Origin: Sulfurovum sp.
Lineage (GTDB): Bacteria > Campylobacterota > Campylobacteria > Campylobacterales > Sulfurovaceae
NCBI GenBank assembly: GCA_027082955.1
Contig: JALWTA010000036.1
Span: 1-43,104, forward strand
Direction: 5' to 3'
DNA length: 43,104 nucleotides
Below, piece by piece: positions 27,713 through 42,959 of the stretch. A program made the position numbers and the translations under genes. Each line of letters starts with the position of its first letter. Position 1 is the stretch's first letter. The notes beneath the pieces are model-generated. The model saw only the letters and a list, made by a program, of their open reading frames with translations, was not told the DNA's origin and did not search any database.

Positions 27713-29533
27713 CTACGCTTTCTCTTCCGGATCGTCGCACCGCTTTTTGGGGAAGAGTATTGTTTTGAGGTTGTCGGTCAAGACACACCATACATCTTTC
27801 CCTTCTGTATCTTCCTCACCCTCTTCACTGCATATTCGTTCATCCTGCGGCATCATTGCCTTTGCATTGTCCATCAAAACAGGGATGAAGAAGAGTGCCA
27901 CAGCTGTTGCAGCCATAGAACCGAAGATCAAAGCGATACCCAGTCCGCCAAAGATCGGGTCAGTAGAAAGCAGCAGTGAACCGAGTATGATCGCCACAGC
28001 CGTCATCAAAATAGGTTTTGCACGCGTTGCTGTAGCCTTGGCGATCGCCTCTTTTTTCTCCATACCATTCTTAATTAATGCCCGTGAGAAATCAATGAGC
28101 AGCAGTGAACCGCGCGCACTGATCCCCATCAGCGAGATAAACCCAATCAACGATGTTGCCGTCAGGAAGAAATTGACATCGGTAATTGCCAATGAGATCT
28201 TGTCTGTGATCCAGTGTCCAATGATCACACCAATGATAGACAGAAAACTTCCCGCAAGTACAATACCGCTAAGCGCAAAGGATTTGTAGTAAACCACCAT
28301 CAGCAAAAACATCAAGATCAATGCAGCGATAAATGCACCCCCAAGATCACGGAAGGTATCAAGAGATACTTTCATCTCGCCATCCCAGCGTATCAGTACC
28401 TTTTCACCCGTTTTTTTATCGACAGCATGCAGGTCGAACATATAGGTGGACATACCCGGTGTTTTGGTGATATTGTATTCATCCTTCAGCACTGCAAGCA
28501 TCTTTTTTCTGGCATCAAGCAGCGGATAGACCTGCGAAACAAGATCACACTCAGCAGTGATCGTGACCATATTTTTCAGATCTTTTCTGAAGATCGTCGG
28601 TGAAGAAGGCACCTCTTTAATGTCTACCACCTCTACAAGCGGCACCATCATCCCTCTTCTGTTCATCAATCTAAGGTTGGAGAGTTTACTGTGCAGCGCC
28701 TCTTTGTTCTCCCCGTTGATCTTTCGTGAATTACCGTCCAAACGCACAAAGATCGGTATCTGATCCTGCTGGTTTTTGGTATTTTTCACTGCAACCGGCA
28801 TCCCTTTAAAGGCAAGGTAGACGATTTGATTCACCTGATCGACACTCAACCCGCTGCGAATGATCTTCTCTTTATTTGGAGAGAGCATATAGGTCTTGTA
28901 AATATCATCCATCATCACATCGACATCCACCAGTCCCTCTGTCTCTTTGAGGATCTGACTGACCCTTTGTGCCATATGGCGCAGCTGTTTGTCTGACTTG
29001 CTGTAGAGTTCCACAACAATGGTTGCCAGCGTCGGAGGGCCTGAAGGCATTTCAATGAACTTGATGTTCGTACCCGCCTTTAAAGGCTCGCAGCGTTTTT
29101 GAATGATAGGACGGATACGGTGCACCATCATAAAAGAGGATTCATCGCGGTGATGTTTATCAGTAAGGTTGACAACCACCTCTGCCTGATTTTGAAAACG
29201 CTTGAAGGCACTTCCCTTGACAAGCCCGGCATAATCCAGCGGTGCCCCCTGTCCGAGGAAAACCTCCATATCGGTTACACCTGCCTCTTTTTGCAATGTG
29301 GAGACAACACACTGGGCCACCTGTTTCGTTTCATCGATGGAGGCATTGGTAGCCGTATCGATGTAGATCGTAAAGGTATCCGCACTTTTACCCGGGAGCA
29401 TTTTGGCAAGTACCAGCTTTGTCGGTATCATTGCCACAGCACCCATCAGCGCCATGAGTGTGATCAGTATGACCAGCCGTTTTTTCTTTTTGCTTCGGAG
29501 GATACCGAGCAAAAACGCTTCAAATCTGCCCAT
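27713..29533 (-). CDS. RND transporter, C-terminal half-protein (TM7-12)
   Basis: This 606-residue protein corresponds to the second half of an AcrB/CusA-type pump. It has TM7 (about residues 19-40), a periplasmic porter domain (~50-385), and five further helices (TM8-12) from ~390 to ~560. In TM10, GISARGSLLLIDF places R474 where AcrB has Lys-940 of the proton relay. The C-terminal tail is acidic with cysteines (CSEEGEEDTEG). The ATG at 29533 shares one base with the stop of the first half (TAATG), and GGAGG lies just before it. Both halves have intact ends at the cytoplasmic loop, so this is a genuine two-gene pump rather than a frameshift. Substrate unknown. Confidence 0.88.
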   Translation of the reverse strand: MGRFEAFLLGILRSKKKKRLVILITLMALMGAVAMIPTKLVLAKMLPGKSADTFTIYIDTATNASIDETKQVAQCVVSTLQKEAGVTDMEVFLGQGAPLDYAGLVKGSAFKRFQNQAEVVVNLTDKHHRDESSFMMVHRIRPIIQKRCEPLKAGTNIKFIEMPSGPPTLATIVVELYSKSDKQLRHMAQRVSQILKETEGLVDVDVMMDDIYKTYMLSPNKEKIIRSGLSVDQVNQIVYLAFKGMPVAVKNTKNQQDQIPIFVRLDGNSRKINGENKEALHSKLSNLRLMNRRGMMVPLVEVVDIKEVPSSPTIFRKDLKNMVTITAECDLVSQVYPLLDARKKMLAVLKDEYNITKTPGMSTYMFDLHAVDKKTGEKVLIRWDGEMKVSLDTFRDLGGAFIAALILMFLLMVVYYKSFALSGIVLAGSFLSIIGVIIGHWITDKISLAITDVNFFLTATSLIGFISLMGISARGSLLLIDFSRALIKNGMEKKEAIAKATATRAKPILMTAVAIILGSLLLSTDPIFGGLGIALIFGSMAATAVALFFIPVLMDNAKAMMPQDERICSEEGEEDTEGKDVWCVLTDNLKTILFPKKRCDDPEEKA

Positions 29534-31245
29534 TATGCCTCCTCCTCTTTTTCTACATCATCATGATGTTTTTTATGTGCCAGAACCTCTTTTTTGATCT
29601 TTTTGAAATTGAGCCATTTTCGTGCCAGGAATGGCGCAAAAACATAGGCAACAAAGAGCGACACAGCAAGACCTACGGGTACATTGAGAGGAATCGGTTT
29701 CATAAACTGCCCCATCATCCCTCCCACAAACGCCATGGGTACCATTGTCAGGATGATGGCTATGGTGGCGATATTGGTCGAAGGTCCGATCTCATCGGTT
29801 GCCTGAATGACAATCTCATCGATCGTTTTCTTCTCAATATCAAGATGGAGCCGTCTGTGAATGTTCTCGATCACAATAATCGCATCATCAACAATCAGCC
29901 CTAGCGAAAGCAGAAAGGCAAACAACGTAATACGGTTGATGGTCTGTCCGGTCATCTGGGCAATGAACAGTGTTGTTGCCAGGATCATTGGAACGGCTAC
30001 CGTCACGACCATTGACTCCCGCCATCCAAGGAACGGAATCAGAATCAGCATAATGATAAAAATAGTGATCTCCAGATGGTGCACCAGCTCATTGACTGCC
30101 TCATTCGCACGGTCCCCGTAGTTACGCGTGATCACAAACCCGACACCTGCCTTGTTGAGCTTTTCTCTGGCTGCTTCTATCTTTTCGATCGCCTCTTTTG
30201 CAATATATACCGCATTGGTACCTTTCAGTTTCGATACGGTCATCGTGATCTGCGTATCTAAAGGCATGAACTCAGGAGCATTGCTTTGGTTTTCTTCGGA
30301 AACCTCAGCCTCTTTGATCTTTTCAGGTTCAGTATCCATCCCTTTGCGATAGCTGATCAGAGCACTTTGGTAGTTTTGGATATCGTAGCTGTACTCAACC
30401 TTGGCAATGTTTTTCAGGTAGATCGGAGAACCCATATATTGTGCAATGATCAGCTCTTTAAGATCATCGATGGTATCGATGGCATTTTCGACCCCAAAAA
30501 CGACAAGACGCTTATAGTTGTCTACCGTATCGATCATCGGGGCATTGGTCGAGATAGCTTTGATCGCTTTGGCAACCTGCCCCAGCGAGATGTGGTATGC
30601 AGAGAGTTTATGCAGATCGATCAGCACATTATACTGTGGATGTTTCACTCCTTTAAGAGTTGTTTTAGAGACATTATCAAGTGCATTGATCTCTGTCTGA
30701 AGCTCACGAATGGTCTTGTAAAGCTCCACCACATTCATTTTGGTACCCGGAAGACGGTAGAATGCCGCTGTAAGAATAGGGATGTCAATATCGATGTCAA
30801 ACGGTTTCACCAAAGGAGGCATAGTACCTTTGGGAAGGTGATCCATATTCTGCATAACCTTATCGTAGAGTTTGAGATTCGATGATTCCCTGTCCTCTCC
30901 AATGTAATACTGTACATTCACCATCCCGAAATTGTTCATGGCAGTACCGTAAACGTGCTCCACTCCTTTGATCTCACGTATTTTGCGCTCAAGCGGTTTG
31001 ATCACAACATTGAGGATCTCCTTGGGAGTCGCACCCGGAAGTGCCACAACGACCGCTCCGCCGCTGACCTCTATCTGCGGATCTTCCTCTCTTGGCATGG
31101 TATTGAGTGCGACAAATCCCAACAGCAAAATAGAAACAGCCAGTATAGGTGTAAGCGGGTTACCCAGAAACGCTTTGGACAAGTGCCCTGCAATATTTTT
31201 AATTTTGTAATCTTCCATGGCGTCCATTATAACGTCATTAAACAT
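29533..31245 (-). CDS. RND transporter, N-terminal half-protein (TM1-6)
   Basis: This 570-residue protein is the first half of an RND pump: TM1 (~residues 31-50), the porter domain (~55-385), and TM2-6 (~390-545). TM4 contains LGLIVDDAIIVIEN with D453 and D454, the proton-relay aspartates of RND pumps. The C-terminus is a charged, His/Glu-rich tail ending a few codons after TM6, exactly where a full-length pump continues through a cytoplasmic loop into TM7. The longest frame starts at ATG 31245 without a Shine-Dalgarno. ATG 31218 (MEDYKIKNIAG) has TGGA nearby and resembles known N-termini, so it may be the true start. It is coupled to the second half by TAATG. Confidence 0.88.
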   Translation of the reverse strand: MFNDVIMDAMEDYKIKNIAGHLSKAFLGNPLTPILAVSILLLGFVALNTMPREEDPQIEVSGGAVVVALPGATPKEILNVVIKPLERKIREIKGVEHVYGTAMNNFGMVNVQYYIGEDRESSNLKLYDKVMQNMDHLPKGTMPPLVKPFDIDIDIPILTAAFYRLPGTKMNVVELYKTIRELQTEINALDNVSKTTLKGVKHPQYNVLIDLHKLSAYHISLGQVAKAIKAISTNAPMIDTVDNYKRLVVFGVENAIDTIDDLKELIIAQYMGSPIYLKNIAKVEYSYDIQNYQSALISYRKGMDTEPEKIKEAEVSEENQSNAPEFMPLDTQITMTVSKLKGTNAVYIAKEAIEKIEAAREKLNKAGVGFVITRNYGDRANEAVNELVHHLEITIFIIMLILIPFLGWRESMVVTVAVPMILATTLFIAQMTGQTINRITLFAFLLSLGLIVDDAIIVIENIHRRLHLDIEKKTIDEIVIQATDEIGPSTNIATIAIILTMVPMAFVGGMMGQFMKPIPLNVPVGLAVSLFVAYVFAPFLARKWLNFKKIKKEVLAHKKHHDDVEKEEEA

Positions 31246-33592: not shown

Positions 33593-33622
33593 ACTAAAAT
33601 CAATATGATATTAAGGAATATA

Positions 33623-34174
33623 ATGATGAGAAAAAGATTGAAATCCTTTGCTGCGATAGCTGCCTTGACACTTCTTTTCAGCGCTTCACTTCATGCTGAA
33701 GCTGCCAAGGTGATTGATGCAAAAGCCGATGTTGCCATTGAAAAGTTCAAAAAACTGGTCAAGGGGGGAGATGTCTTCCTTCGAAAGGTCAAAGGCTACC
33801 TCGTATTTCCGGCAGTTTACAAAGGCGGATTTATCGTAGGAGGACAATACGGCGAAGGTGTTCTGCGTGTTAACGGCAAAACCGTTGGATACTACAGCAT
33901 CGCTTCCGCCTCTGTCGGTTTACAGATAGGAGCACAGAAAACCTCTTACATCTTCGCCTTTGCAGATCAGTTCGCACTTGATCAGTTCATGCACAGTAAC
34001 GGCTGGGAGGCAGGCGTAGACGGTTCTATTGCCGTAGCGAAATGGGGTCAGGGTGTCGATATCAGCTCTATCAGCTACGAAAAACCCATCTATGCCTTTG
34101 TTTTTAACAACAAAGGGCTCATGGCGAACATCAGTCTTGCAGGTACGAAATTTACCCGTATCATCCCGCAATAA
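33623..34174 (+). CDS. SYLF (YSC84-type) domain exported protein
   Basis: A 183-residue protein with signal peptide (MMRKRLKSFAAIAALTLLFSASLHAEA). The SYLF domain follows: FLRKVKGYLVFPAVYKGGFIVGGQYGEGVL, then SASVGLQIGAQKTSYIFAF and SYEKPIYAFVFNNKGLMANISLAGTKFTRI. SYLF domains bind phosphoinositides in eukaryotes; bacterial ones are periplasmic and of unclear role, possibly lipid-binding. The frame opens at ATG 33605, but AAGGA 5 bases before ATG 33623 fixes the start there (ATG 33626 also possible). It is a single-gene unit with an extended -10. Confidence 0.85.
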   Translation: MMRKRLKSFAAIAALTLLFSASLHAEAAKVIDAKADVAIEKFKKLVKGGDVFLRKVKGYLVFPAVYKGGFIVGGQYGEGVLRVNGKTVGYYSIASASVGLQIGAQKTSYIFAFADQFALDQFMHSNGWEAGVDGSIAVAKWGQGVDISSISYEKPIYAFVFNNKGLMANISLAGTKFTRIIPQ

Positions 34175-34217: not shown

Positions 34218-35717
34218 CTAAAAACTATATGAGAAGTTCATAAATACCAGCGCTTCATCCTTCACCTGATCAAACGATGCCGAACCACCGAAATAATCCA
34301 CAAAACCAAGCTCAGCACTAAATGCATCACTGATATCATCCACTACCCATCCGCGATGAAATCCTCCATGGTCCAGTCCCAATCCGAAACGGGTATGCAA
34401 ATAGTTGACATGCAGTGTATCATTGAAAAAGCTGGTACTGATACGGAATGCATGCTGATAGGTATTTTCTTCCAAATTCTCCTGCATAAGCCGCTGATCG
34501 TACGCTATAAAATGACGCACGGCAATGTCGTAACTGATCATAGTATCGGCAATCCCGGTATATTCCACACCGATAAGCCCGTCAATTCGCTGCATCTTCT
34601 TCTCCGGAGTATAGGTATATCGCAGGTCTCTCCAGTATGCTGCTTCTGTTTTAAAAAGCCATGAACCGCTGAGCAGGTTCAGTGCTGTACCGAACATGGT
34701 TGACTTGTCATGATGCAGCTGTGTCGGCGTTACAAACGGCTTGGCATTGATAATATATCCATGATCATCATAAATATGTGCTGCATAAAGGTTAATATCC
34801 CATCCATGGTACTCGGCACCTGCACTGACGGCATAGGTGACATCATGATAGGATGCCTGAGTTGGGGGGAATGGAATGACCTGCCCGGTTTGGGGTAGAT
34901 AAGGCAGTGGATTGAACGCTGACCCGTAAGGGGGATTTTTGGTAAAACGCTGTTCCAAGATGGCAATAGGGGTGATGCGCCAGTTTCCGATACTGTAGTC
35001 GAACCGAAGCATGCCAACAGGCAAACGGAGATCTTCAATATCAACAATCCCGGGACGACGAAAATCGAGAGGGTTAAGCACATCGGTAATACGTATGGTA
35101 TCGCTGCGTCCCCAAACAACGACTTGCCGCCCTGCTTTCAGACTGAGCGAGTCATTGATGTTCCACTCAACATAGGCATCGTAAAGCTCCGCTTCGCTTC
35201 GAAGGGACTGACGCTCCTGTACCGTGTAGTCTTGTGCGCGCACATCATAAATACCATCATAAAAACTACGGGCATTCAGCTTGACTTTGACACCATTGTC
35301 AAACCGGTGTTCATAGTCCAAAAAGAGCGTGGTCCGCAAAGAAGAGAGCATATTTTCCGGCTTCGTGCTGTTGTAGGCAAGCAGCAACTGTTGTGTCAGT
35401 TTGCCTGTCAATCCATCAGGCAGCCATCCCGGCATCTCTTCTTCACCTGCACCGGATGACTCTTCCGTACCGGAATCCGATATTGCCGCATCCTCTTCCA
35501 TACTTCCGGTCTGTTCAGCAGCCTCAGTCTCATCCGTATCATCAAAACCTGCCAACGCCTCATCATCTGCTTTCTGTGTTGTTGTTTTTTCAACGGTGGG
35601 TGTTGCCGTATCGTCAAATCCGTCAAGTGCATCATCAATACTTTCCGCATGCAGTTGTACAGCTGTCAACACAGAAAGTAGCGGCAGAGTAATATAACGC
35701 AGCCTAAAAACGTTCAT
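34218..35717 (-). CDS. DUF1302-like outer-membrane beta-barrel
   Basis: A 499-residue exported protein. The signal peptide MNVFRLRYITLPLLSVLTAVQLHA is followed by an acidic, disordered stretch (~25-100) with the motif ALxGFDDT twice (ALDGFDDTAT and ALAGFDDTDE). A large barrel begins at LTGKLTQQLLLAYN and ends in FMNFSYSF. The segment KAGRQVVVWGRSDTIRITDVLNPLDFR is characteristic of the DUF1302 family. ATG 35717 lies 4 bp after the stop of the LolA-like gene and gives the signal peptide; a frame extending to 35765 is rejected. The role inferred from the operon is the outer-membrane end of an MMPL-driven lipid or hydrophobe export route. Confidence 0.8.
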   Translation of the reverse strand: MNVFRLRYITLPLLSVLTAVQLHAESIDDALDGFDDTATPTVEKTTTQKADDEALAGFDDTDETEAAEQTGSMEEDAAISDSGTEESSGAGEEEMPGWLPDGLTGKLTQQLLLAYNSTKPENMLSSLRTTLFLDYEHRFDNGVKVKLNARSFYDGIYDVRAQDYTVQERQSLRSEAELYDAYVEWNINDSLSLKAGRQVVVWGRSDTIRITDVLNPLDFRRPGIVDIEDLRLPVGMLRFDYSIGNWRITPIAILEQRFTKNPPYGSAFNPLPYLPQTGQVIPFPPTQASYHDVTYAVSAGAEYHGWDINLYAAHIYDDHGYIINAKPFVTPTQLHHDKSTMFGTALNLLSGSWLFKTEAAYWRDLRYTYTPEKKMQRIDGLIGVEYTGIADTMISYDIAVRHFIAYDQRLMQENLEENTYQHAFRISTSFFNDTLHVNYLHTRFGLGLDHGGFHRGWVVDDISDAFSAELGFVDYFGGSASFDQVKDEALVFMNFSYSF

Positions 35718-35721
35718 AGAA

Positions 35722-36516
35722 TTAGAGTCCCTGTTCAAGACGTTTTGTCGTAAAGACATTGTCACTGATGGGCTGGTTGAGTTTGATATGGTTGAACTTC
35801 AGAATGGTTTTATGCACTGTTTTTCTTCCTTTTTTTGTGGTCATCGTGATCTCATCTGCGACCCAAATGCCGTTTTGCTGATGCAGTTTGGTCATATCCA
35901 TATATTTTTTCTTGTCATTTTTCATAAATCCTATGGAGCGTACCACCACATAGTTGTCTTTTCTTACAATGCCGATACTCTTGAGATAACCTGATTCTTT
36001 GATCACCTTCTTGGTACGCGGTATTGCCTGAATCACCCATGCATCGTGTCCGCGTACTTTGGTCTCTTTAAGGAGCGTAAAATCATAATCCTCCAGATCT
36101 CTGTCGGTCATGTCAAAATAGGAAAAGTCCGATCCCATAAAACTCGAACTCTTGTCCGTACTCGGTATGCGTTTTACTTTTTTGAGTGCAGGCAGGTAGA
36201 GCCACTGGTCATCATCTTTGTTCGGATCGTCATAGTCATAGGTTAGAAAGGCGGTGTTTTTGACATCTGCAGGTGAACGGAAGAACAAAATACGATACTC
36301 ATCCGGACCAAAATCCTTGCTGTAGGATTTCAGATCACGCAGACGTTTTTTACCATGTTTGTCGATAAGGATCATTTTCATGTCCTGCTGTACCGTTTTG
36401 CCGTCATCCCGTGCATCGACCTTCTCCATGATCGCACGTGCTTTGGGATCATCTGCATATACCGCTACACCCGTCAACATGAATACCGCTATCGTTGTCA
36501 AAATTGTTTTTTTCAT
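35722..36516 (-). CDS. LolA-like outer-membrane lipoprotein-sorting family protein
   Basis: A 264-residue periplasmic protein: signal peptide MKKTILTTIAVFMLTGVAVYA, then a half-barrel of the LolA/LppX superfamily. Typical blocks are DMKMILIDKHGKKRLRDLKSY, YRILFFRSPADVKNTAFLTYDY, QWLYLPALKKVKRIPSTDKSSSFMGSDFSYFDM and DYDFTLLKE. Such proteins bind lipid moieties in a hydrophobic cavity. GGAAGAG upstream of ATG 36516 sets the start; the longer frame from 36543 is rejected. It lies between an MMPL exporter and a DUF1302 porin, a trio that recurs in proteobacteria. By analogy it should carry a hydrophobic cargo across the periplasm; the cargo is unknown. Confidence 0.85.
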   Translation of the reverse strand: MKKTILTTIAVFMLTGVAVYADDPKARAIMEKVDARDDGKTVQQDMKMILIDKHGKKRLRDLKSYSKDFGPDEYRILFFRSPADVKNTAFLTYDYDDPNKDDDQWLYLPALKKVKRIPSTDKSSSFMGSDFSYFDMTDRDLEDYDFTLLKETKVRGHDAWVIQAIPRTKKVIKESGYLKSIGIVRKDNYVVVRSIGFMKNDKKKYMDMTKLHQQNGIWVADEITMTTKKGRKTVHKTILKFNHIKLNQPISDNVFTTKRLEQGL

Positions 36517-36614
36517 TATCTCTTCCTTTACTTGGTTTTGCATATCATAAAAGCTTTTCGCAAAAAAGCCAACCTCTTTTTATCAAATCTTATGGCTTTG
36601 CTCAGTTCCTATGC

Positions 36615-36669
36615 GTTCCCACGCGGAGCATGGGAACAAGAGCAAACGGTGTTGTCAGGGGACAACACC
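36615..36669. repeat. REP-like pair of hairpins
   Basis: Hairpin 1 has arms GTTCCCA (36615-36621) and TGGGAAC (36631-36637) around CGCGGAGCA, a motif familiar from intergenic repeats in many proteobacteria. Hairpin 2 has perfect 9-bp arms GGTGTTGTC (36648-36656) and GACAACACC (36661-36669) with loop AGGG. Both lie in the 205-bp gap inside the MMPL/LolA-like/DUF1302 operon and may attenuate or process the transcript. Confidence 0.7.
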
Positions 36670-36710
36670 CTACAGTAAATCAAAGCTTTCCAAAGGAAAG
36701 CATACCAAAA

Positions 36711-36738
36711 CTATTCACTATTCACTCTTCACTCTTAA
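36711..36738. repeat. Heptamer tract, 4 x 7 bp, across the MMPL stop codon
   Basis: CTATTCA twice, CTCTTCA, CTCTTAA: 28 bp exactly. It encodes the last residues of the MMPL protein and its stop (36722), so the repeat sets the C-terminus. Confidence 0.75.
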
Positions 36739-39133
36739 TCCCGTCAATCCACCCTCGTTTTGCCGCAACGATCATCAATGAAGGTGCCAAAAGAAGATCT
36801 GCCAGCAGCGCAAAGATGATCACAGTACCGGTCAACAGTCCAAAATTGTGCACCGATATCATCTGTGCCATCATATAGGCATAGAAGCCCAAAGAGAGTA
36901 CTACCGAAGTGATCACCATCGCTTTCCCTGTCGTAAAGAAAGTATGCCTGATCGCTTCAGCACTGTCTTTTGTCTTGGCATAATAACGCATGAAGTTATG
37001 CATAAAATGAATTGTATCATCTACCGCAAGCCCGATTGCAATACTGCCGATAAGCAGTGTAAACATATCCAGAGGGATACCAAAAAGAACCATGATAAGC
37101 AAACCGAGAATGATCGGTGTCAGATTGGGTACCATACTTAGAAGACCGATACGTACAGACCGCAGGATCAGCATCATCATCAGTGTGATCAGAGTAAATG
37201 CAGCAATATAGCTTTTGACTGCCGAGCGGATTGCCTGGCTGAATGTCGTTACCATCAGCGGTACCACACCGGTAACGGAAACATTGTCATCGGGGAATGT
37301 CTTTTTTACTTCCTGATTGATATAGGCAAGTACACCTGTAGCCTTGATCGAATCTACCCATGGTACTTTGATTGTGATACGTACTTTGGAGAACTGGCTG
37401 TCTACCACATCTTCGAGGTCATCACTGCCTGAATTTTCAAACAGCAACAGTTCCTGGGCAAGCAGATCCTTCCCTTTTGGTATGGTGTAGTAGCGCTCAT
37501 CATTGCTGTGCAGTGCACGGTTTGTCTCTTTGACGATCGTATTGAGAGAAACTGCCTTCCCGACAAAAACATACGGGTCTCTGTACTGTTCCAGTCTTGC
37601 TGTCAGACGGTCAAGCTTTTGCATACGGACAGGGTCGGTCCAGCCATTCTCTTTTCCGGTATCGATCACTGCTTCAATGGTCAATGATCCATGCATAATA
37701 CCGTCAATTTTCTCGGTGGAGAGTCGAACAGATTTGTCAGGTTTGAACCAGTGCAGCGGATTGTGCGAAAGTTCTATGGTCGAACCTGCCCATAGTGCCG
37801 CAGCAACCAACACTGCACTCAGTGCAATGATACTGCGGTAGTGTTTTACCGGTACTTCTGCTAATCGTGCCATCATGCGGTCAAGCTTTCCGGGTGCTTT
37901 GTTCTTTTTGGGTTTCAAACGGGTAATGACCAAAAGTGCTGGCAGCAGTGTCAGGGTTAAAAAAAGCGACACCATAACACCAAAAGAGGCGAATATCCCC
38001 AGATCACTGATAGGAGCGACCTCACTTCCGGCAAATGAACCGATACCGATGGCTGTCGTAACAGAGGTCATAGCAATGGCAAGTCCAGAATGTCCCAATG
38101 TGTGGGAAACTGCATCTTTTTTGTCACCCGTCTCATTGAAACGGTCAAAAAAGATAGAAAGCACGTGTACTGTCGCACCGACACTTACCGCCAAAAGCAG
38201 CGACGGTACAATCTGTGTCGGCAGCTTGAACGCTGTACCTGTCCACGCCATCAATCCGACAGTCGAAAGGAGTGCCAAAATAACAACGATCAGCGGATAG
38301 ACCACAGCCGAGATACGGCGGAACATCAAAAAGAGGAATACAATTACGATCAGAAGGGTAATACGTGTAAACTTCTGCATATCACTGCGCATCTGTGTTT
38401 TCAGTACATCCAGAACGACAGGAGAACCCGCTACATAGATCTCAAGACCTTTTTTTCGGTATTTTTTGACAATCTCATACACTTTTTTAACGATTTTGGC
38501 ATTCTCCTCATCAGTCAAAAATTTTTGAGGTACCGAGGGAGCCGCTGTACCACTGTCCCCTTCAAAGCCGGCATCGATATCACTCTCTGCGTTTTCACCT
38601 TCATGGGAAAAGGCATCGGTCTCGATAACAATGGTGGTCATCTTGCCGTCTTGGGAGATGAACAGGTCTTTATAGAAATGTGATGCCAATGCCCTTTTTT
38701 TAATGGCATCTACCTCTTGCTGTGTTTTCGGAAATGGCTCCAAAAGATCATCGGTCAATAACTGATCGCCCTTGCCGCGTGTGTTTCTCACATTATAGAG
38801 CGATGTGACATCATCGAGATAAGGCACGTTGTTTTCTATCTCTTCATGCAAATCTCTGAGCGTTTTTAAAAAATCAAGTGTAAATATGTTGTCACTTTTG
38901 ATCGCGATCGCAATCCGTTCATCCCTTCCAAACTGCTCTCTGAAACGGTTATAGCTTATGAGTATCGGATCATCTTTGTGAAAGAATCCTTCGTTGGAGG
39001 TATCGAATTTGATTTGCGGTACATGTGAAATCGGTATAATGACCAGCAAAAGTGCCAGTATGATTGTCTTTATTGGATGGTCGGCGATCCAGCTTCCCAT
39101 CTTTCTCATGCTATTCTCTAATTTTTGATGCAT
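36722..39133 (-). CDS. MMPL/RND-superfamily exporter
   Basis: An 803-residue inner-membrane transporter with two homologous halves, each with a large periplasmic loop and a block of membrane helices. TM1 is near residues 18-36, followed by a periplasmic domain to ~255. The second half carries GLAVDDTIHFMHNFM with an Asp pair like the proton relay of RND proteins; the first half has SVGATVHVLSIFF at that place, without acids. The size fits MMPL/HpnN-like exporters of lipids, hopanoids or other hydrophobes. ATG 39133 has GGGGAG 6 bases upstream. It is the first gene of a three-gene operon with the LolA-like and DUF1302 genes. Substrate unknown. Confidence 0.87.
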   Translation of the reverse strand: MHQKLENSMRKMGSWIADHPIKTIILALLLVIIPISHVPQIKFDTSNEGFFHKDDPILISYNRFREQFGRDERIAIAIKSDNIFTLDFLKTLRDLHEEIENNVPYLDDVTSLYNVRNTRGKGDQLLTDDLLEPFPKTQQEVDAIKKRALASHFYKDLFISQDGKMTTIVIETDAFSHEGENAESDIDAGFEGDSGTAAPSVPQKFLTDEENAKIVKKVYEIVKKYRKKGLEIYVAGSPVVLDVLKTQMRSDMQKFTRITLLIVIVFLFLMFRRISAVVYPLIVVILALLSTVGLMAWTGTAFKLPTQIVPSLLLAVSVGATVHVLSIFFDRFNETGDKKDAVSHTLGHSGLAIAMTSVTTAIGIGSFAGSEVAPISDLGIFASFGVMVSLFLTLTLLPALLVITRLKPKKNKAPGKLDRMMARLAEVPVKHYRSIIALSAVLVAAALWAGSTIELSHNPLHWFKPDKSVRLSTEKIDGIMHGSLTIEAVIDTGKENGWTDPVRMQKLDRLTARLEQYRDPYVFVGKAVSLNTIVKETNRALHSNDERYYTIPKGKDLLAQELLLFENSGSDDLEDVVDSQFSKVRITIKVPWVDSIKATGVLAYINQEVKKTFPDDNVSVTGVVPLMVTTFSQAIRSAVKSYIAAFTLITLMMMLILRSVRIGLLSMVPNLTPIILGLLIMVLFGIPLDMFTLLIGSIAIGLAVDDTIHFMHNFMRYYAKTKDSAEAIRHTFFTTGKAMVITSVVLSLGFYAYMMAQMISVHNFGLLTGTVIIFALLADLLLAPSLMIVAAKRGWIDGIKSEE

Positions 39134-39292
39134 AGGCTCTCCCCTTCTATTGTCACACTTCTACCAAACAACCGTATGCAGGCTACGCATAAAAGAGCAG
39201 AAACCTTCCGGTTATTGGGATAAAAGAGATAAAAGTATATCGTTTTTCATATTAGAGGTGTTCTTAGATATTCCGTTTCAATCTTCTAAGGA

Positions 39293-39298
39293 TATAAT
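39293..39298 (+). promoter_or_regulatory. -10 box of the diacylglycerol-kinase-like gene
   Basis: TATAAT at 39293-39298, 28 bases before ATG 39327. It lies inside the longer open frame that begins at 39150, so that longer version cannot be translated from this transcript. Confidence 0.65.
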
Positions 39299-39326
39299 AC
39301 ACTATCACAACAGCAGAAGGCAGCCC

Positions 39327-40010
39327 ATGAAATTGCTCTCAATCGGACAAAACATTAGCCATACAGGGCTTGATATCACTTCCATCGAGACCTCATCCCT
39401 GGCATCACATCATGACATCGAACAGTATGACTATGCGATCATCAATGGCGGTGACGGTACCATACGCCGTGTGCTTTTACAGCTGCACACCTTAAAAAAA
39501 CAGCCGGTATTCATCCTCAATCCTACAGGCTCGTTCAATGTTGTTGCCAAAATGCATCATGTACCTCCCATTTCACAGGTTCTGGATATGCTTGCAGACA
39601 ACAAAATACCCCAAACACAAAAGCACCATTTTTACAAAATCAATGAGCAGATATTCCTTTTTTCAGCAGGCAACATGGGGGATCTGCAACACATTTTTCT
39701 CTCAGAAACGCTGCGTTTCGGATACCTCAAACACGGTTTTCCAAAATATCTGCTTTCTGTTGTTTTTCTCCTGCCGCTCCATCTTGTTATGACACCCTTC
39801 ATGCTGGCAAGCAGTACACGCTTTTTTATCTTTACGCCGATGCGGTCCATCAAAAAACTCGGTAGTTTCTACGGGCAGGTACCCAAAGAACTGATGATCG
39901 ACCTTAAGAACGAATACAATATGATCGAACTTGACGGTGACATCGTCACCATGCACGGCAGACATCTGCATATCTCCTATGCAGGCAATATTCGCATCGT
40001 TACCGAGTAG
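39327..40010 (+). CDS. Diacylglycerol/lipid kinase catalytic-domain protein
   Basis: A 227-residue protein with the NAD-kinase-like lipid kinase fold. The nucleotide loop is NGGDGT at 40-45 and the second motif is LNPTGSFNVVAK, matching the GTxNDFAR block of DgkB/YegS kinases with substitutions. A C-terminal beta-sandwich ends LDGDIVTMHGRHLHISYAG. It is shorter than usual (~290-300), mainly at the N-terminus. The start ATG 39327 has AGAAGG 6 bases upstream and lies after the -10 box. The product would phosphorylate a lipid, but changes in the second motif leave activity uncertain. The GH20 gene follows after 6 bp, so the two are cotranscribed. Confidence 0.78.
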   Translation: MKLLSIGQNISHTGLDITSIETSSLASHHDIEQYDYAIINGGDGTIRRVLLQLHTLKKQPVFILNPTGSFNVVAKMHHVPPISQVLDMLADNKIPQTQKHHFYKINEQIFLFSAGNMGDLQHIFLSETLRFGYLKHGFPKYLLSVVFLLPLHLVMTPFMLASSTRFFIFTPMRSIKKLGSFYGQVPKELMIDLKNEYNMIELDGDIVTMHGRHLHISYAGNIRIVTE

Positions 40011-40016
40011 AGAAAG

Positions 40017-41636
40017 ATGACCCGATCGATCCTCCGCTTTCTATATCATCTCACACCTCTTCTTCTCTTCACTGCTTCTACACTCTATGCCGTACCTCCC
40101 ATACAGGGCATCATCCCAAAACCGTATACTTTCATCCCAAAATCCGGAACTTTCAAACTCGACAGACATACCCAAATCCTGTATGATACCCCTTTGTGCA
40201 GCAAGGCACGTATCTATCTTCAAAGCCATCTTGGCTACACACTGCCTTCGGGAACTCCTACACATACTTCAGGGCAGATACTGTTTCATTATGCACCACG
40301 TTCGGTGACTCAGTCCGAAGGGTACATACTCGATATTGACACCAAACAGATTCGCATAGAAGCAAGGGATGCAGCAGGATTTTTTTACGGCATCATCACA
40401 CTGATGCAGCTGACCGACCCGAATATCTGGGATAGTTCCAAAATCAATCCTTCACATAGCTGGTATATTCAGGCATGCCATATTGAAGACCACCCCTACT
40501 TTAAGTGGCGCGGTATGATGCTGGATGTCTCGCGAAACTTCTTCTGTGTTGCCTACATCAAAAAGTTTCTCGACCGTATGGCACAGTACAAACTCAACCG
40601 TTTTCACTGGCACCTGACCGATGATGAAGGGTGGCGTATCGAGATCAAGCACTACCCGAAACTGACTTCAATTGGTGCAGTACGCGGTCCGGGTACACAA
40701 CTGCCCTTCTCCTTTTTCCCTGCAATGCGCGGACGCAAAGACCGTGTACAGCGTGGTTTCTACAGCCAAAAAGAGATCAAAGAGATCGTTGCCTATGCAC
40801 ATGCCCGTGCCATTGAAGTCATACCGGAGATCGATATGCCTGGGCACGCCAAAGCAGCTCTGACCGCCTATGCGAACCTGCTCAGTGATCCACATGACCG
40901 TAGCAGCTACCGCTCTATACAGCATATACGAAACAATACGGTAAACCCTGCCATAGAGAGCACCTATACATTTCTTGACCATGTCATTGCCGAAGTAAGC
41001 CGTCTCTTCCCCTCTGCCTATATCCATCTTGGCGGAGATGAGATTCCCAAGGGGGCATGGCAAGGCTCTCCGGCAGTGCACAAACTCATGCAACAGCGTC
41101 ACTTAAAAAACCTGCAGCAGGTAAAGAACTATTTCTTCGAACGCGTCGATGCCATTTTGAAAAAGCACGGCAAAAAAATGCTTACCTGGCAGGAGGTGCT
41201 TCAAGGCAGCCCCATGCTGCACAATGAAGATATGGTCGTGGCATGGAAAAGTCCAAAGGCAGGCTACAGAGCCATTGAAAAACACCACAATACCATCATG
41301 GCTCCGGTACAGTACCTCTACTTCGACCAACAATACAAACGTGCCAAAGGCGAACCCGGACAGAAGTGGTCGACACCTGTTTCTTTAAAAAAGGTCTACA
41401 GTTTCCGTCCCAAACGCACATGCTGTCTAAAAGGGGTAGAGGCGTGTCTGTGGTCAGAGACACTGCTTGACGAACATATTGCAGACTACCTTGCATGGCC
41501 AAGAGCACTTGCTCTCTGCGAAATTGCATGGAGCGCTCCTGAACATCGCCAATGGCACAGTTTCAAAAAGAGAATGCAGCAATTTGCACTGCCCAGACTC
41601 AAAGCTCAACATGTACATTATAGGCCAGTAAAATAA
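40017..41636 (+). CDS. GH20 beta-N-acetylhexosaminidase
   Basis: A 539-residue exported glycosidase that removes terminal GlcNAc or GalNAc by substrate-assisted catalysis. The signal peptide MTRSILRFLYHLTPLLLFTASTLYA is followed by a GH20b N-terminal domain (~30-150) and the TIM barrel. Family motifs seen are WRGMMLDVSRNFF, RFHWHLTDDEGWRIEIK, EVIPEIDMPGHAKAAL and HLGGDE with the catalytic pair D341-E342. The C-terminal VEACLWSE contributes the final subsite Trp. ATG 40017 lies 6 bp after the kinase stop, with AGAAAG as Shine-Dalgarno. Next to NamZ, it probably trims GlcNAc from peptidoglycan or chitin fragments in the periplasm. Confidence 0.93.
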   Translation: MTRSILRFLYHLTPLLLFTASTLYAVPPIQGIIPKPYTFIPKSGTFKLDRHTQILYDTPLCSKARIYLQSHLGYTLPSGTPTHTSGQILFHYAPRSVTQSEGYILDIDTKQIRIEARDAAGFFYGIITLMQLTDPNIWDSSKINPSHSWYIQACHIEDHPYFKWRGMMLDVSRNFFCVAYIKKFLDRMAQYKLNRFHWHLTDDEGWRIEIKHYPKLTSIGAVRGPGTQLPFSFFPAMRGRKDRVQRGFYSQKEIKEIVAYAHARAIEVIPEIDMPGHAKAALTAYANLLSDPHDRSSYRSIQHIRNNTVNPAIESTYTFLDHVIAEVSRLFPSAYIHLGGDEIPKGAWQGSPAVHKLMQQRHLKNLQQVKNYFFERVDAILKKHGKKMLTWQEVLQGSPMLHNEDMVVAWKSPKAGYRAIEKHHNTIMAPVQYLYFDQQYKRAKGEPGQKWSTPVSLKKVYSFRPKRTCCLKGVEACLWSETLLDEHIADYLAWPRALALCEIAWSAPEHRQWHSFKKRMQQFALPRLKAQHVHYRPVK

Positions 41637-41671
41637 CGTTTATCAATTCTCAGTTCCCAAACTTTTGAAAA

Positions 41672-41745
41672 CGAAAGCTTTAGCTTCGCCCTGATGTTCA
41701 TGTGCAAAATCACATTTGACGGGACTAAAGTCTCCGATTCCAAGA
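41672..41745. repeat. Intergenic repeat element, copy B
   Basis: It shares CGAAAGCTTTAGCTTCG (41672-41688) with 19220-19236 and a second block (41725-41745) with 19272-19291. As in copy A, it sits between two convergent genes (GH20 and NamZ). Confidence 0.65.
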
Positions 41746-41748
41746 TGA

Positions 41749-41784
41749 GACCAATAACCAATACACCAGTTACCAATCACCACA
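41749..41784. repeat. Heptamer-like tract before the NamZ stop
   Basis: Five ACC-containing units: GACCAAT, AACCAAT, ACACCAGT (8 bp), TACCAAT, CACCACA. The period is 7 except for one 8-bp unit. It ends 2 bp before the namZ stop codon. Confidence 0.6.
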
Positions 41785-41786
41785 CA

Positions 41787-42959
41787 CTACGGATAAAGCA
41801 GATACTTCTCTCTGATCCTCTTAAATTTCTCCAAATCTGCTTTCCAGCTCTTACGTATCTGCCCCTCACTCCAGCCCGACTCAAGCTGTTTTCGCAGATG
41901 ATCGCTGCCGGCAAGTTTGTCAAAAAACGTTCCGCCGTGAAGAAAAAAATGCCGTTTATCACTGTAATGTGCATAGGCATCTTTCAAATAGTGCAGCAGC
42001 ACCCTTTTTTTGCTACGCAGTGAAGCCATATCCAGATGACGCAGATCGGCACCGTAACAGCATCTGTTTTGATATTTCGGATGTTTTGCTCCCGGCATCG
42101 CATGCGGAGTAAAACAGAACGTTTTTTTTCTATATCGCGGTGCTCCGTAACATTCAAAAGGGAAGAGAGTTCCCCGACCAAGAGAGAAGGCTGTACCCTC
42201 CATCAGTACCAAAGAGGGATAGAGTGCAACCGCTCTTGCATTGGGGAGATTTGGAGAGGGCTTAACGGGAAGGACATAAGGGCGGTCATGTCTGTACCCT
42301 CGAATCGGTATTACATACAGATCGGTTTTTACCCCGTTTTGAAGCCACCCTTCTGCGTTGATCATCAGAGTATACTCACCAATGGTCATACCATACACAA
42401 GTGGAACCGGATCAACGCCTACAAAAGAACGAAACTGGCGCTTTAGCACAGGACCATCCACATAATAGCCATTAGGATTGGGACGGTCAAGCACTATCAT
42501 CGGTATGCCTGCCTCTGCTGACGCCTCCATAACATAGTGCAGTGTCGACAGATAGGTATAACAGCGTACCCCGATATCCTGAATGTCAAACAGGATCACA
42601 TCGACATCTTTCAGGTCATTTAATGTCGGCTTTTTCCTCTTGCCATACAAGGAAATCACCGGCAGTTTTCTTTTGGCATCGTATCCGTTTTGAAGCGATG
42701 CTCCCGCATCGGCACGTCCGGCAAATCCATGCTCCGGAGCAAAAATCTTAACGACCTTGACACCATGTTCTTGTAGCAGATCGACAAGGTGCCGCTTTCC
42801 TACCATCGACGTGTGGTTGACAACAAGTGCTACACGTTTCTGTGAAAGCAGCGGCAGGTAAAGTGCCGTTCTTGCTGCTGCCGGCACAACCGCCTCTTCT
42901 GCCGTTGCCATAGAGAGCAGCAGGATGAAAATACTTATCCATAGGCAGATTTGCTTCAC
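41787..42959 (-). CDS. namZ: Exo-beta-N-acetylmuramidase NamZ (DUF1343, GH171)
   Basis: A 390-residue exported protein of the DUF1343 family, whose characterised member NamZ releases MurNAc from the non-reducing end of peptidoglycan. The signal peptide is MKQICLWISIFILLLSMATA. Conserved blocks include VALVVNHTSMVGKRHLVDLL, KIFAPEHGFAGRADAG, VDVILFDIQDIGVRCYTYLSTLHYVMEA, VLDRPNPNGYYVDGPVL, VYGMTIGEYTLMINAEGWL, SLVLMEGTAFSLGRGT and PFECYGAP. The length is normal. The start is GTG 42959 with AGGA about 8 bases upstream. The GH20 enzyme on the opposite strand may supply the complementary GlcNAc-releasing activity. Confidence 0.92.
   Translation of the reverse strand: MKQICLWISIFILLLSMATAEEAVVPAAARTALYLPLLSQKRVALVVNHTSMVGKRHLVDLLQEHGVKVVKIFAPEHGFAGRADAGASLQNGYDAKRKLPVISLYGKRKKPTLNDLKDVDVILFDIQDIGVRCYTYLSTLHYVMEASAEAGIPMIVLDRPNPNGYYVDGPVLKRQFRSFVGVDPVPLVYGMTIGEYTLMINAEGWLQNGVKTDLYVIPIRGYRHDRPYVLPVKPSPNLPNARAVALYPSLVLMEGTAFSLGRGTLFPFECYGAPRYRKKTFCFTPHAMPGAKHPKYQNRCCYGADLRHLDMASLRSKKRVLLHYLKDAYAHYSDKRHFFLHGGTFFDKLAGSDHLRKQLESGWSEGQIRKSWKADLEKFKRIREKYLLYP

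Follow-up and report, generated by a model that had tools for sequence, protein, structure and literature searches.

The window analysed here is a stretch of 43,104 nucleotides from Sulfurovum sp. (GenBank assembly GCA_027082955.1, contig JALWTA010000036.1, positions 1 to 43,104), which makes up an entire contig of a 2.1 Mb genome. Three of its genes, all on the minus strand, encode an inner-membrane pump of the MMPL family, a LolA-like periplasmic protein of family PF17131 and an outer-membrane barrel of family DUF1302, in that order, and are referred to below as the trio:

36722..39133, minus strand: inner-membrane transporter of the MMPL / HAE3-like RND type, 803 amino acids (PF03176, E-value 3.1e-39)
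35722..36516, minus strand: LolA-like periplasmic protein, 264 amino acids including the signal peptide (PF17131, E-value 2.2e-52)
34218..35717, minus strand: DUF1302 outer-membrane beta-barrel, 499 amino acids from the ATG at 35717 (PF06980, E-value 2.6e-25)

The open reading frames (ORFs) lie at the coordinates and in the order given by the original prediction, which had been made from the letters of the window, and each matches its Pfam family above the gathering score. Judged from the sequence, the ATG at 36516 is a likelier start for the LolA-like protein than the ORF bound at 36543, and for the DUF1302 protein the ATG at 35717, directly after the LolA-like stop codon, is preferred over the upstream GTG at 35765. 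A gap of 205 bp separates the MMPL gene from the LolA-like start; it holds a perfect palindrome-like element (36615-36637, GTTCCCATGCTCCGCGTGGGAAC) of which this is the sole copy in the 2.1 Mb genome. The whole genome yielded a single PF17131 match, a single PF06980 match and 12 PF03176 matches, two of them in the trio MMPL and the rest in frames of 539-614 or 1016-1046 amino acids, none of which matches the trio MMPL in length (803 amino acids). The MMPL protein scored 218.7 bits against the HAE3 profile TIGR00921 (curated cut-off 351.9) and fell far below the cut-offs for HpnN (TIGR03480, 139.5 vs 751.85) and BstA (NF045600, 37.9 vs 1400), with PF03176 above its own cut-off. The DUF1302 protein matched PF06980 at 89.9 bits (cut-off 23.2), where canonical members reach 605 bits.

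AlphaFold2 modelled the barrel of the DUF1302 protein at a predicted local distance difference test score (pLDDT) of about 95 and left N-terminal residues 31-92 below 50. The acidic tail that precedes the barrel has a net charge of -24 when taken as 84 residues, and the motif ALxGFDDT can be read in it twice, as the original prediction had pointed out. Sites resembling this motif were scored with a matrix of nine positions built from barrel tails alone:

35421..35645, minus strand: acidic tail from signal peptide to barrel, disordered-looking (pLDDT below 50 over residues 31-92)
35607..35630, minus strand: motif copy 1, ALDGFDDT, with the best matrix score in the DUF1302 protein (26.5)
35535..35558, minus strand: motif copy 2, ALAGFDDT, read in the sequence

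Short helices precede or begin both copies in the model, at low confidence. The barrel itself returned general porin-type matches alone in Foldseek (template modelling (TM) score about 0.4-0.5), Occ/OprD, AlgE and MOMP barrels were tied in fold likeness at Z about 20-22, and sequence search found no relative of the DUF1302 protein with a solved structure. That the tail acts as a plug of the barrel was considered and set aside on weak evidence, namely that AlphaFold2 leaves it unfolded.

Relatives of the trio were collected by a scan of contigs with 16 LolA-like proteins, from which the best 80 of 352 relatives were kept. The original prediction had the trio recurring in other proteobacteria, and its spread goes well beyond them: among the 80 loci it was found in Campylobacterota, Gammaproteobacteria, Nitrospirae, Nitrospinota, Myxococcota and Desulfobacterales. 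Gene order was counted in 75 of the 80 loci, leaving out L103, L162, L163, L165 and L177, for which an antisense ORF had been chosen instead of LolA. DUF1302 came after the LolA-like gene in 71 of these 75, MMPL came before it in 65, and both held in 61. Two of the four loci without DUF1302 are at contig ends, and the other two (L173, L175) belong to genomes with a DUF1302 gene elsewhere. Among the ten without MMPL directly upstream, five have scant upstream sequence (16 to 2,091 bases) and two (L116, L166) carry MMPL at a greater distance, with other ORFs in between; the upstream stretch available for L143, L170 and L171 shows none. Across 60 related genomes, the window's included, PF06980 was above its cut-off in 14 and PF17131 in 28; all 14 PF06980 genomes also had PF17131, as adjacent genes on one contig in 12, the two exceptions being G032 (each gene at a contig end) and G046 (different contigs).

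The tail motif accompanies the LolA-like gene in nearly all of this collection. Of 75 DUF1302 proteins beside the LolA-like class, 73 have GF[DE][DEN] within residues 1-220 (16 of 17 outside Campylobacterota), and the two others read LEGFSE (L108) and LLEGFDT (L178). With one protein cut at a contig end (L106) left out, the core [LMVIF]xGF[DE] was found in 71 of 74 tails, in 130 copies at 1-4 per tail, against 0.83 copies expected from composition-preserving shuffles, which rules out chance low-complexity repeats; the tails without it are that of L108 and those of L151 and L156, which have DDGFEDE. The fuller tail consensus is hydrophobic-[DE]-[DE]-x-[LM]-x-G-F-[DE]-[DE]-x-P. A role of the repeats in binding cations, or as a plain low-complexity spacer, would suit the 27% Asp plus Glu of the tails, but is very improbable given the same excess over shuffles and the conservation of a hydrophobic L/M at -2 and of F, residues that do not coordinate metals. 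A genome-wide motif scan gave 24 DNA matches against 14 in a reversed control; those in-frame matches beyond the two DUF1302 copies that could be placed look cytoplasmic, presumably FtsH-, PurA- and AspRS-like proteins.

The pump carries the same motif. Alignment of 57 MMPLs, complete proteins of more than 750 amino acids as in the insert counts and the matrix comparison of MMPLs in this part, placed it in an acidic insert:

38504..38635, minus strand: acidic, length-variable insert of the first periplasmic loop, MMPL residues 167-210
38555..38581, minus strand: degenerate GF copy DIDAGFEGD, MMPL residues 185-193, the protein's best matrix site (4.6)

Of the 57 inserts, 35 contain GF[DE], where shuffles would give 2.74 (outside Campylobacterota, 12 of 13 contain it); GF occurs in 49 and [GADE]F[DEGSA] in all 57; F190 is kept in at least 95% of the 57 homologues, as are D705 and D706 in transmembrane segment 10. 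A search for the strict form [LMVIF]xGF[DE][DEN] among the 780 other proteins of the 80 loci gave 12 matches, 11 of which fall at MMPL residues 186-194. The tail-trained matrix, to which no pump sequence had contributed, scored highest inside residues 150-215 for 53 of the 56 trio MMPLs (median 8.1 against 0.4 for shuffled proteins), compared with 1 of 14 DUF1329-linked MMPLs, 1 of 13 tandem MMPL1 proteins and 2 of 5 MMPLs of a second system described below (scores 5.4 and -0.8); the MMPLs of these other classes rule out a trait of all MMPLs. Scores vary, and 11 of the 56 do not exceed the best of 30 shuffled proteins (5.3), so it is position and not score alone that carries the case for the pump.

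A class sample of 114 gammaproteobacterial-class genomes gave 8 with the LolA-like class (threshold at least 375 bits; next best 221), all with DUF1302 directly adjacent; 8 of 8 tails contain GF[DE], 7 with a hydrophobic residue two places before the G. Six of these trios were held out from training (the other two, G071 and G073, had served for training under the names L172 and L174), and GF[DE] is present in 6 of 6 of their DUF1302 proteins, five with a hydrophobic residue at -2; strong MMPL sites lie at 186-192 in L317, L319, L320 and L321 (15.4-24.9). Where the genes are unlinked (G072, G074), the core persists in the DUF1302 of genomes holding the LolA-like class. By comparison, none of 17 canonical DUF1302 proteins drawn from that class sample and from further genomes has GF[DE][DEN]; 13 of them have DUF1329 in view alongside (L181, L182, L211-L218, L220, L222, L224), and the remaining four are L219, L221, L223 and L225. 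It is also missing from all 11 third-class DUF1302 proteins with a distant LolA partner or none in view (L203-L206, L210, L231-L236); the DUF1302 of L209 likewise lacks it. This count leaves out L207, L208, L237 and L238, which are fragments or different proteins, and L196, for which the wrong ORF had been taken. A trait of all DUF1302 proteins is thereby ruled out. Neither partner had the motif at the corresponding places in eight other trio-like loci, or in ten loci of another LolA-MMPL-barrel class, one of them with an MMPL-LolA fusion. The motif is restricted to loci of one LolA-like class, and by its sequence the window trio can be placed there, with two strong tail copies and a degenerate MMPL copy.

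Some of these contrast loci have features of their own. Third-class DUF1302 tails (L203-L206, L210) carry another acidic motif, near (A/I/E)xLPDDL/IPxxL..LL, that may serve a different partner. The second system (L061, L063, L064, L066, L069) is LolA_like, a barrel of about 390 amino acids and an MMPL of about 755 amino acids in the same order, and its barrels have no GF motif in their N-termini; in L064 it adjoins a TetR-type regulator gene. PF17131 genes in L071-L075 adjoin FtsX/MacB-type permeases, an ATP-binding cassette (ABC) ATPase and a protein of about 380 amino acids, a Lol-like ABC system apart from the trio.

The LolA-like protein matched PF17131 at 177.8 bits (cut-off 30), and the DUF1329 profile aligned above its cut-off over residues 72-160 only (6.5e-11). 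Its AlphaFold2 model (pLDDT 89) has the LolA fold; the closest solved structure is 9tp6, LolA3 of Porphyromonas gingivalis (TM 0.84/0.92, 36% identity), followed by the DUF1329 protein 4z48 and then 3bk5, with TM 0.8-0.9 across the three. The protein is 84% identical to a homologue from a Sulfurovum metagenome-assembled genome, among its closest named relatives. One element is a candidate docking surface by virtue of its class-specific conservation:

35809..35841, minus strand: basic hairpin TTKKGRKTVHK of the LolA-like protein

Conservation of T225, T226, K227, G229, K230 and K235 is 91-96% within the LolA-like class and no more than 6% in an outgroup of 16 LolA-like proteins. The class-specific residues include the basic R26, R35, R184, R192, K227, K230, K235, R258 and K261 (numbered from the residue after Met). 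In LolA3, the available part of the published description reports mainly positive potential around the barrel opening and a weak interaction with LolB (PMC13103446).

We read the trio as probably (about 0.52) forming one trans-envelope route for acyl lipids, with a shuttle that binds a peptide common to its inner- and outer-membrane partners. The MMPL pump would load lipid onto the LolA-like shuttle, which would pass it on to the outer-membrane DUF1302 barrel, docking at either end on a peptide close to [DE]-x-[LM]-x-G-F-[DE][DE] that the pump carries as a single copy in a periplasmic loop and the barrel in one to four copies along its flexible tail. If a single site on the shuttle read both peptides, docking would be mutually exclusive and the extra barrel copies would favour delivery. 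We infer that the LolA-like protein is the reader, since it is the sole other component tied to the motif, that transport is outward and that the cargo is an acyl lipid or fatty acid. One motif in the proteins of two membranes suggests a common reader, and the basic residues of the LolA-like protein, together with the positive opening described for LolA3 in the part available (PMC13103446), would suit docking at both ends. At slightly less than an even chance we would put the more specific arrangement in which donor pump and acceptor barrel share one linear motif, the shuttle is passed on by competitive docking at a single site, and direction is set in part by copy number (usually one on the pump, 1-4 on the barrel). 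The motif is absent from sister systems whose shuttle is DUF1329 or another LolA-fold protein. The original prediction had proposed the ALxGFDDT repeat as a docking peptide for the LolA-like partner and had staked this on co-conservation of the two, which held (71 of 74 tails, against none of the 17 canonical and none of the 11 third-class proteins); the presence of the motif in the MMPL partner as well makes the docking idea more credible. The observation is genuine, has stronger support than the window alone could show, and gains the pump motif as a new feature. It bears on two general questions, by what means lipids get across a periplasm that no bridge spans and by what means a soluble carrier distinguishes donor from acceptor; a peptide shared by pump and barrel is a directly testable answer. 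The motif also sorts DUF1302 proteins, long without a function, into classes by shuttle partner, and fatty acids or phospholipids are indicated as cargo for the class of the window.

The genes on either side of the trio bear on the cargo:

39150..40010, plus strand: diacylglycerol-kinase-like gene, divergent neighbour (PF00781, E-value 1.3e-07)
33605..34174, plus strand: SYLF (Ysc84) lipoprotein-like gene, convergent neighbour (PF04366, E-value 7.6e-12)

SYLF genes lie near the trio in 10 of 80 loci, with up to three copies beside it in relatives, and the diacylglycerol-kinase-like gene lies on the pqi side in relatives, adjoining pqiA in L081, L083 and L084. The trio stands directly beside pqiA-pqiA-pqiB-pqiC and a second MMPL in L102, L104, L106, L124 and L150, although a single MMPL was called in L102, L104 and L150; L111 is linked by PqiC at a contig edge, and G012 and G003 with inserted genes. 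Assignment was by PF04403 for PqiA, three MlaD domains for PqiB and PF03886 for PqiC, and among the 33 loci whose sequence reaches 7.5 kb or more upstream of LolA, 3 have PqiB. Genes for a lipase-like lipoprotein and FadL lie upstream of MMPL in 4 of 80 loci (L120, L141, L148, L149), two of which also have an acyl-CoA ligase, and L103 has a patatin gene; Pfam was run on the neighbour proteins of L148 and L103, and the other lipase/FadL loci were matched by BLAST. The pqiABC, SYLF, lipase-FadL-acyl-CoA ligase and patatin neighbours hint at fatty acids or phospholipids as cargo and leave the direction unsettled.

Other genes of the window and its relatives are recorded here. An AcrB/ACR_tran-type RND pump is encoded at 27713-31245 in two ORFs (606 and 570 amino acids, touching at 29533); the same pump is split in L103 (582 and 606 amino acids), which makes a local frameshift unlikely. 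At 40017-42959 a GH20 hexosaminidase adjoins a NamZ exo-muramidase, likely a muropeptide-processing pair. A radical SAM/SPASM-type gene lies directly downstream of DUF1302 in L049, L055, L056, L103 and L105, mostly with a protein of 340-400 amino acids. A protein of 205-233 amino acids and an HTH_34 winged-helix protein are encoded close together in L105, L114, L132, L133, L154 and L155, upstream of MMPL in most of these six relatives, and are a candidate regulator pair.

Several observations weigh against an acyl-lipid route with a common docking peptide. The window MMPL copy, at 4.6, is below the shuffled 95% point (7.0) and is not significant alone. Among the held-out trios, L322 has an MMPL without the motif and L318 yielded no MMPL. 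Many Campylobacterota loci are closely related, so their counts are not independent. Since isoelectric points exceed 8 in just 49 of 73 LolA-like proteins, attraction by charge cannot be general, and DUF1329 proteins, which have no motif partner, are often basic too. Lipid genes are linked in a minority of loci; the window has its diacylglycerol-kinase-like and SYLF neighbours and no pqi genes, and the genome's PqiB is a distant paralogue on a different contig (27-29% identity).

Three other explanations were weighed. The trio might expel toxic or foreign hydrophobes instead of the cell's own lipids, as does AmeABCD of Castellaniella defragrans, a DUF1302-DUF1329-HAE3 system that, by the available part of its description, confers monoterpene tolerance and lowers Nile Red accumulation (PMC6394551); we consider this rather unlikely, since AmeABCD belongs to a sister class with a different LolA-fold protein and an extra YCF48-like part, and relatives have pqiABC, FadL, lipase, acyl-CoA ligase, patatin and SYLF genes next to the trio. 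The reader of the shared motif might instead be a component different from the LolA-like shuttle, for instance some further factor in the periplasm, or the folded domains of pump and barrel could bind it themselves and so form an autoinhibitory latch. That the motif occurs in a pump and a barrel unrelated to each other suggests a common reader, not necessarily the LolA-like protein, and the unfolded tail of the AlphaFold2 model backs neither latch nor docking; this reading is nevertheless unlikely, because the motif is limited to one LolA-like class, is missing with DUF1329 or more distant LolA partners, and has its core kept in DUF1302 where the genome holds the LolA-like class in the unlinked cases G072 and G074. 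An inward route, or uptake and retrieval of lipids or fatty acids, seems still less likely. It would suit the lipase-like lipoprotein and FadL just upstream in 4 of 80 loci, with acyl-CoA ligase in 2, but RND/HAE3 pumps of known role (HpnN, MmpL3) move lipids outward, and the conserved aspartates of transmembrane segment 10 fit proton-driven export. For Pseudomonas putida, the available text reports that DUF1302, DUF1329 and RND genes are required for growth on Tween 20 (PMC10866462), which also favours uptake.

The acyl-lipid route proposed for the trio has close counterparts among known systems, and comparison with them defines what is particular to it. Lol and Lpt combine ABC-driven extraction from the inner membrane, a periplasmic carrier and an outer-membrane receptor. 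HpnN and BstABC share this logic of extraction, carrier and receptor (for BstABC, the part of the report available, PMC10942540); the trio differs from Lol and Lpt, which are ABC-driven, and from Bst, whose carrier and receptor are of other families. LolCDE and LolB are not encoded at the locus, where the flanks of the LolA-like gene are MMPL and DUF1302 (the search for LolCDE did not extend to the rest of the genome); lipoprotein sorting was rejected as the trio's job, no ABC protein being present at the locus. LolA3, the nearest solved structure, with its basic opening and weak LolB pairing (PMC13103446, in part), comes from Bacteroidota; in P. gingivalis a gene annotated as 'outer membrane lipoprotein-sorting protein' adjoins an MMPL gene according to the text available (PMC10434189), its identity with LolA3 being unchecked. 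In Thalassolituus oleivorans, TOL_3187/TOL_3188 have MMPL and LolA-like domains fused, beside a porin, and are raised on long-chain alkane (available part of PMC6304351), whereas the window genes are separate; a fused protein of our own sample (L323, 1069 amino acids) has no motif.

AmeABCD is close in design: a DUF1302 barrel, a LolA-superfamily periplasmic protein and an HAE3 RND pump are encoded together, with export of apolar compounds proposed in the part of the report available (PMC6394551). The DUF1302 barrel is present in the window trio. DUF1329 fills the LolA role in AmeABCD, which also has an extra COG4447 (YCF48-like) protein, AmeC; the partner in the window is PF17131, and no YCF48/COG4447 protein was found among the ten proteins of the trio and neighbourhood scanned. 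The P. putida proteins PP_0765, PP_0766, PP_2018 and PP_2019 (DUF1302, DUF1329, RND) have been proposed as one transport system, with AlphaFold contacts predicted from the LolA-fold protein to both barrel and RND pump; this is again the DUF1329 class, and the shared peptide is not described in the portion of text examined (PMC10866462). The predicted contacts fit the same topology, presumably achieved through other contacts. The sampled DUF1329-class systems have the motif in neither barrel nor pump, unlike the class of the window. The literature searched held no match for DUF1302 together with MMPL and no report of the GF motif, the sole basis on which we call it unreported. The trans-envelope export route of the original prediction gains from gene order and co-conservation. 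Both the route and its set of parts have precedents, since a role in transport has been proposed for DUF1329 sister systems and, for one of them, a cargo (PMC6394551; PMC10866462, both in part). The trio is a variant of a published type of system, with a LolA-like/PF17131 partner where the sister systems have DUF1329, and the motif shared by pump and barrel is its new feature.

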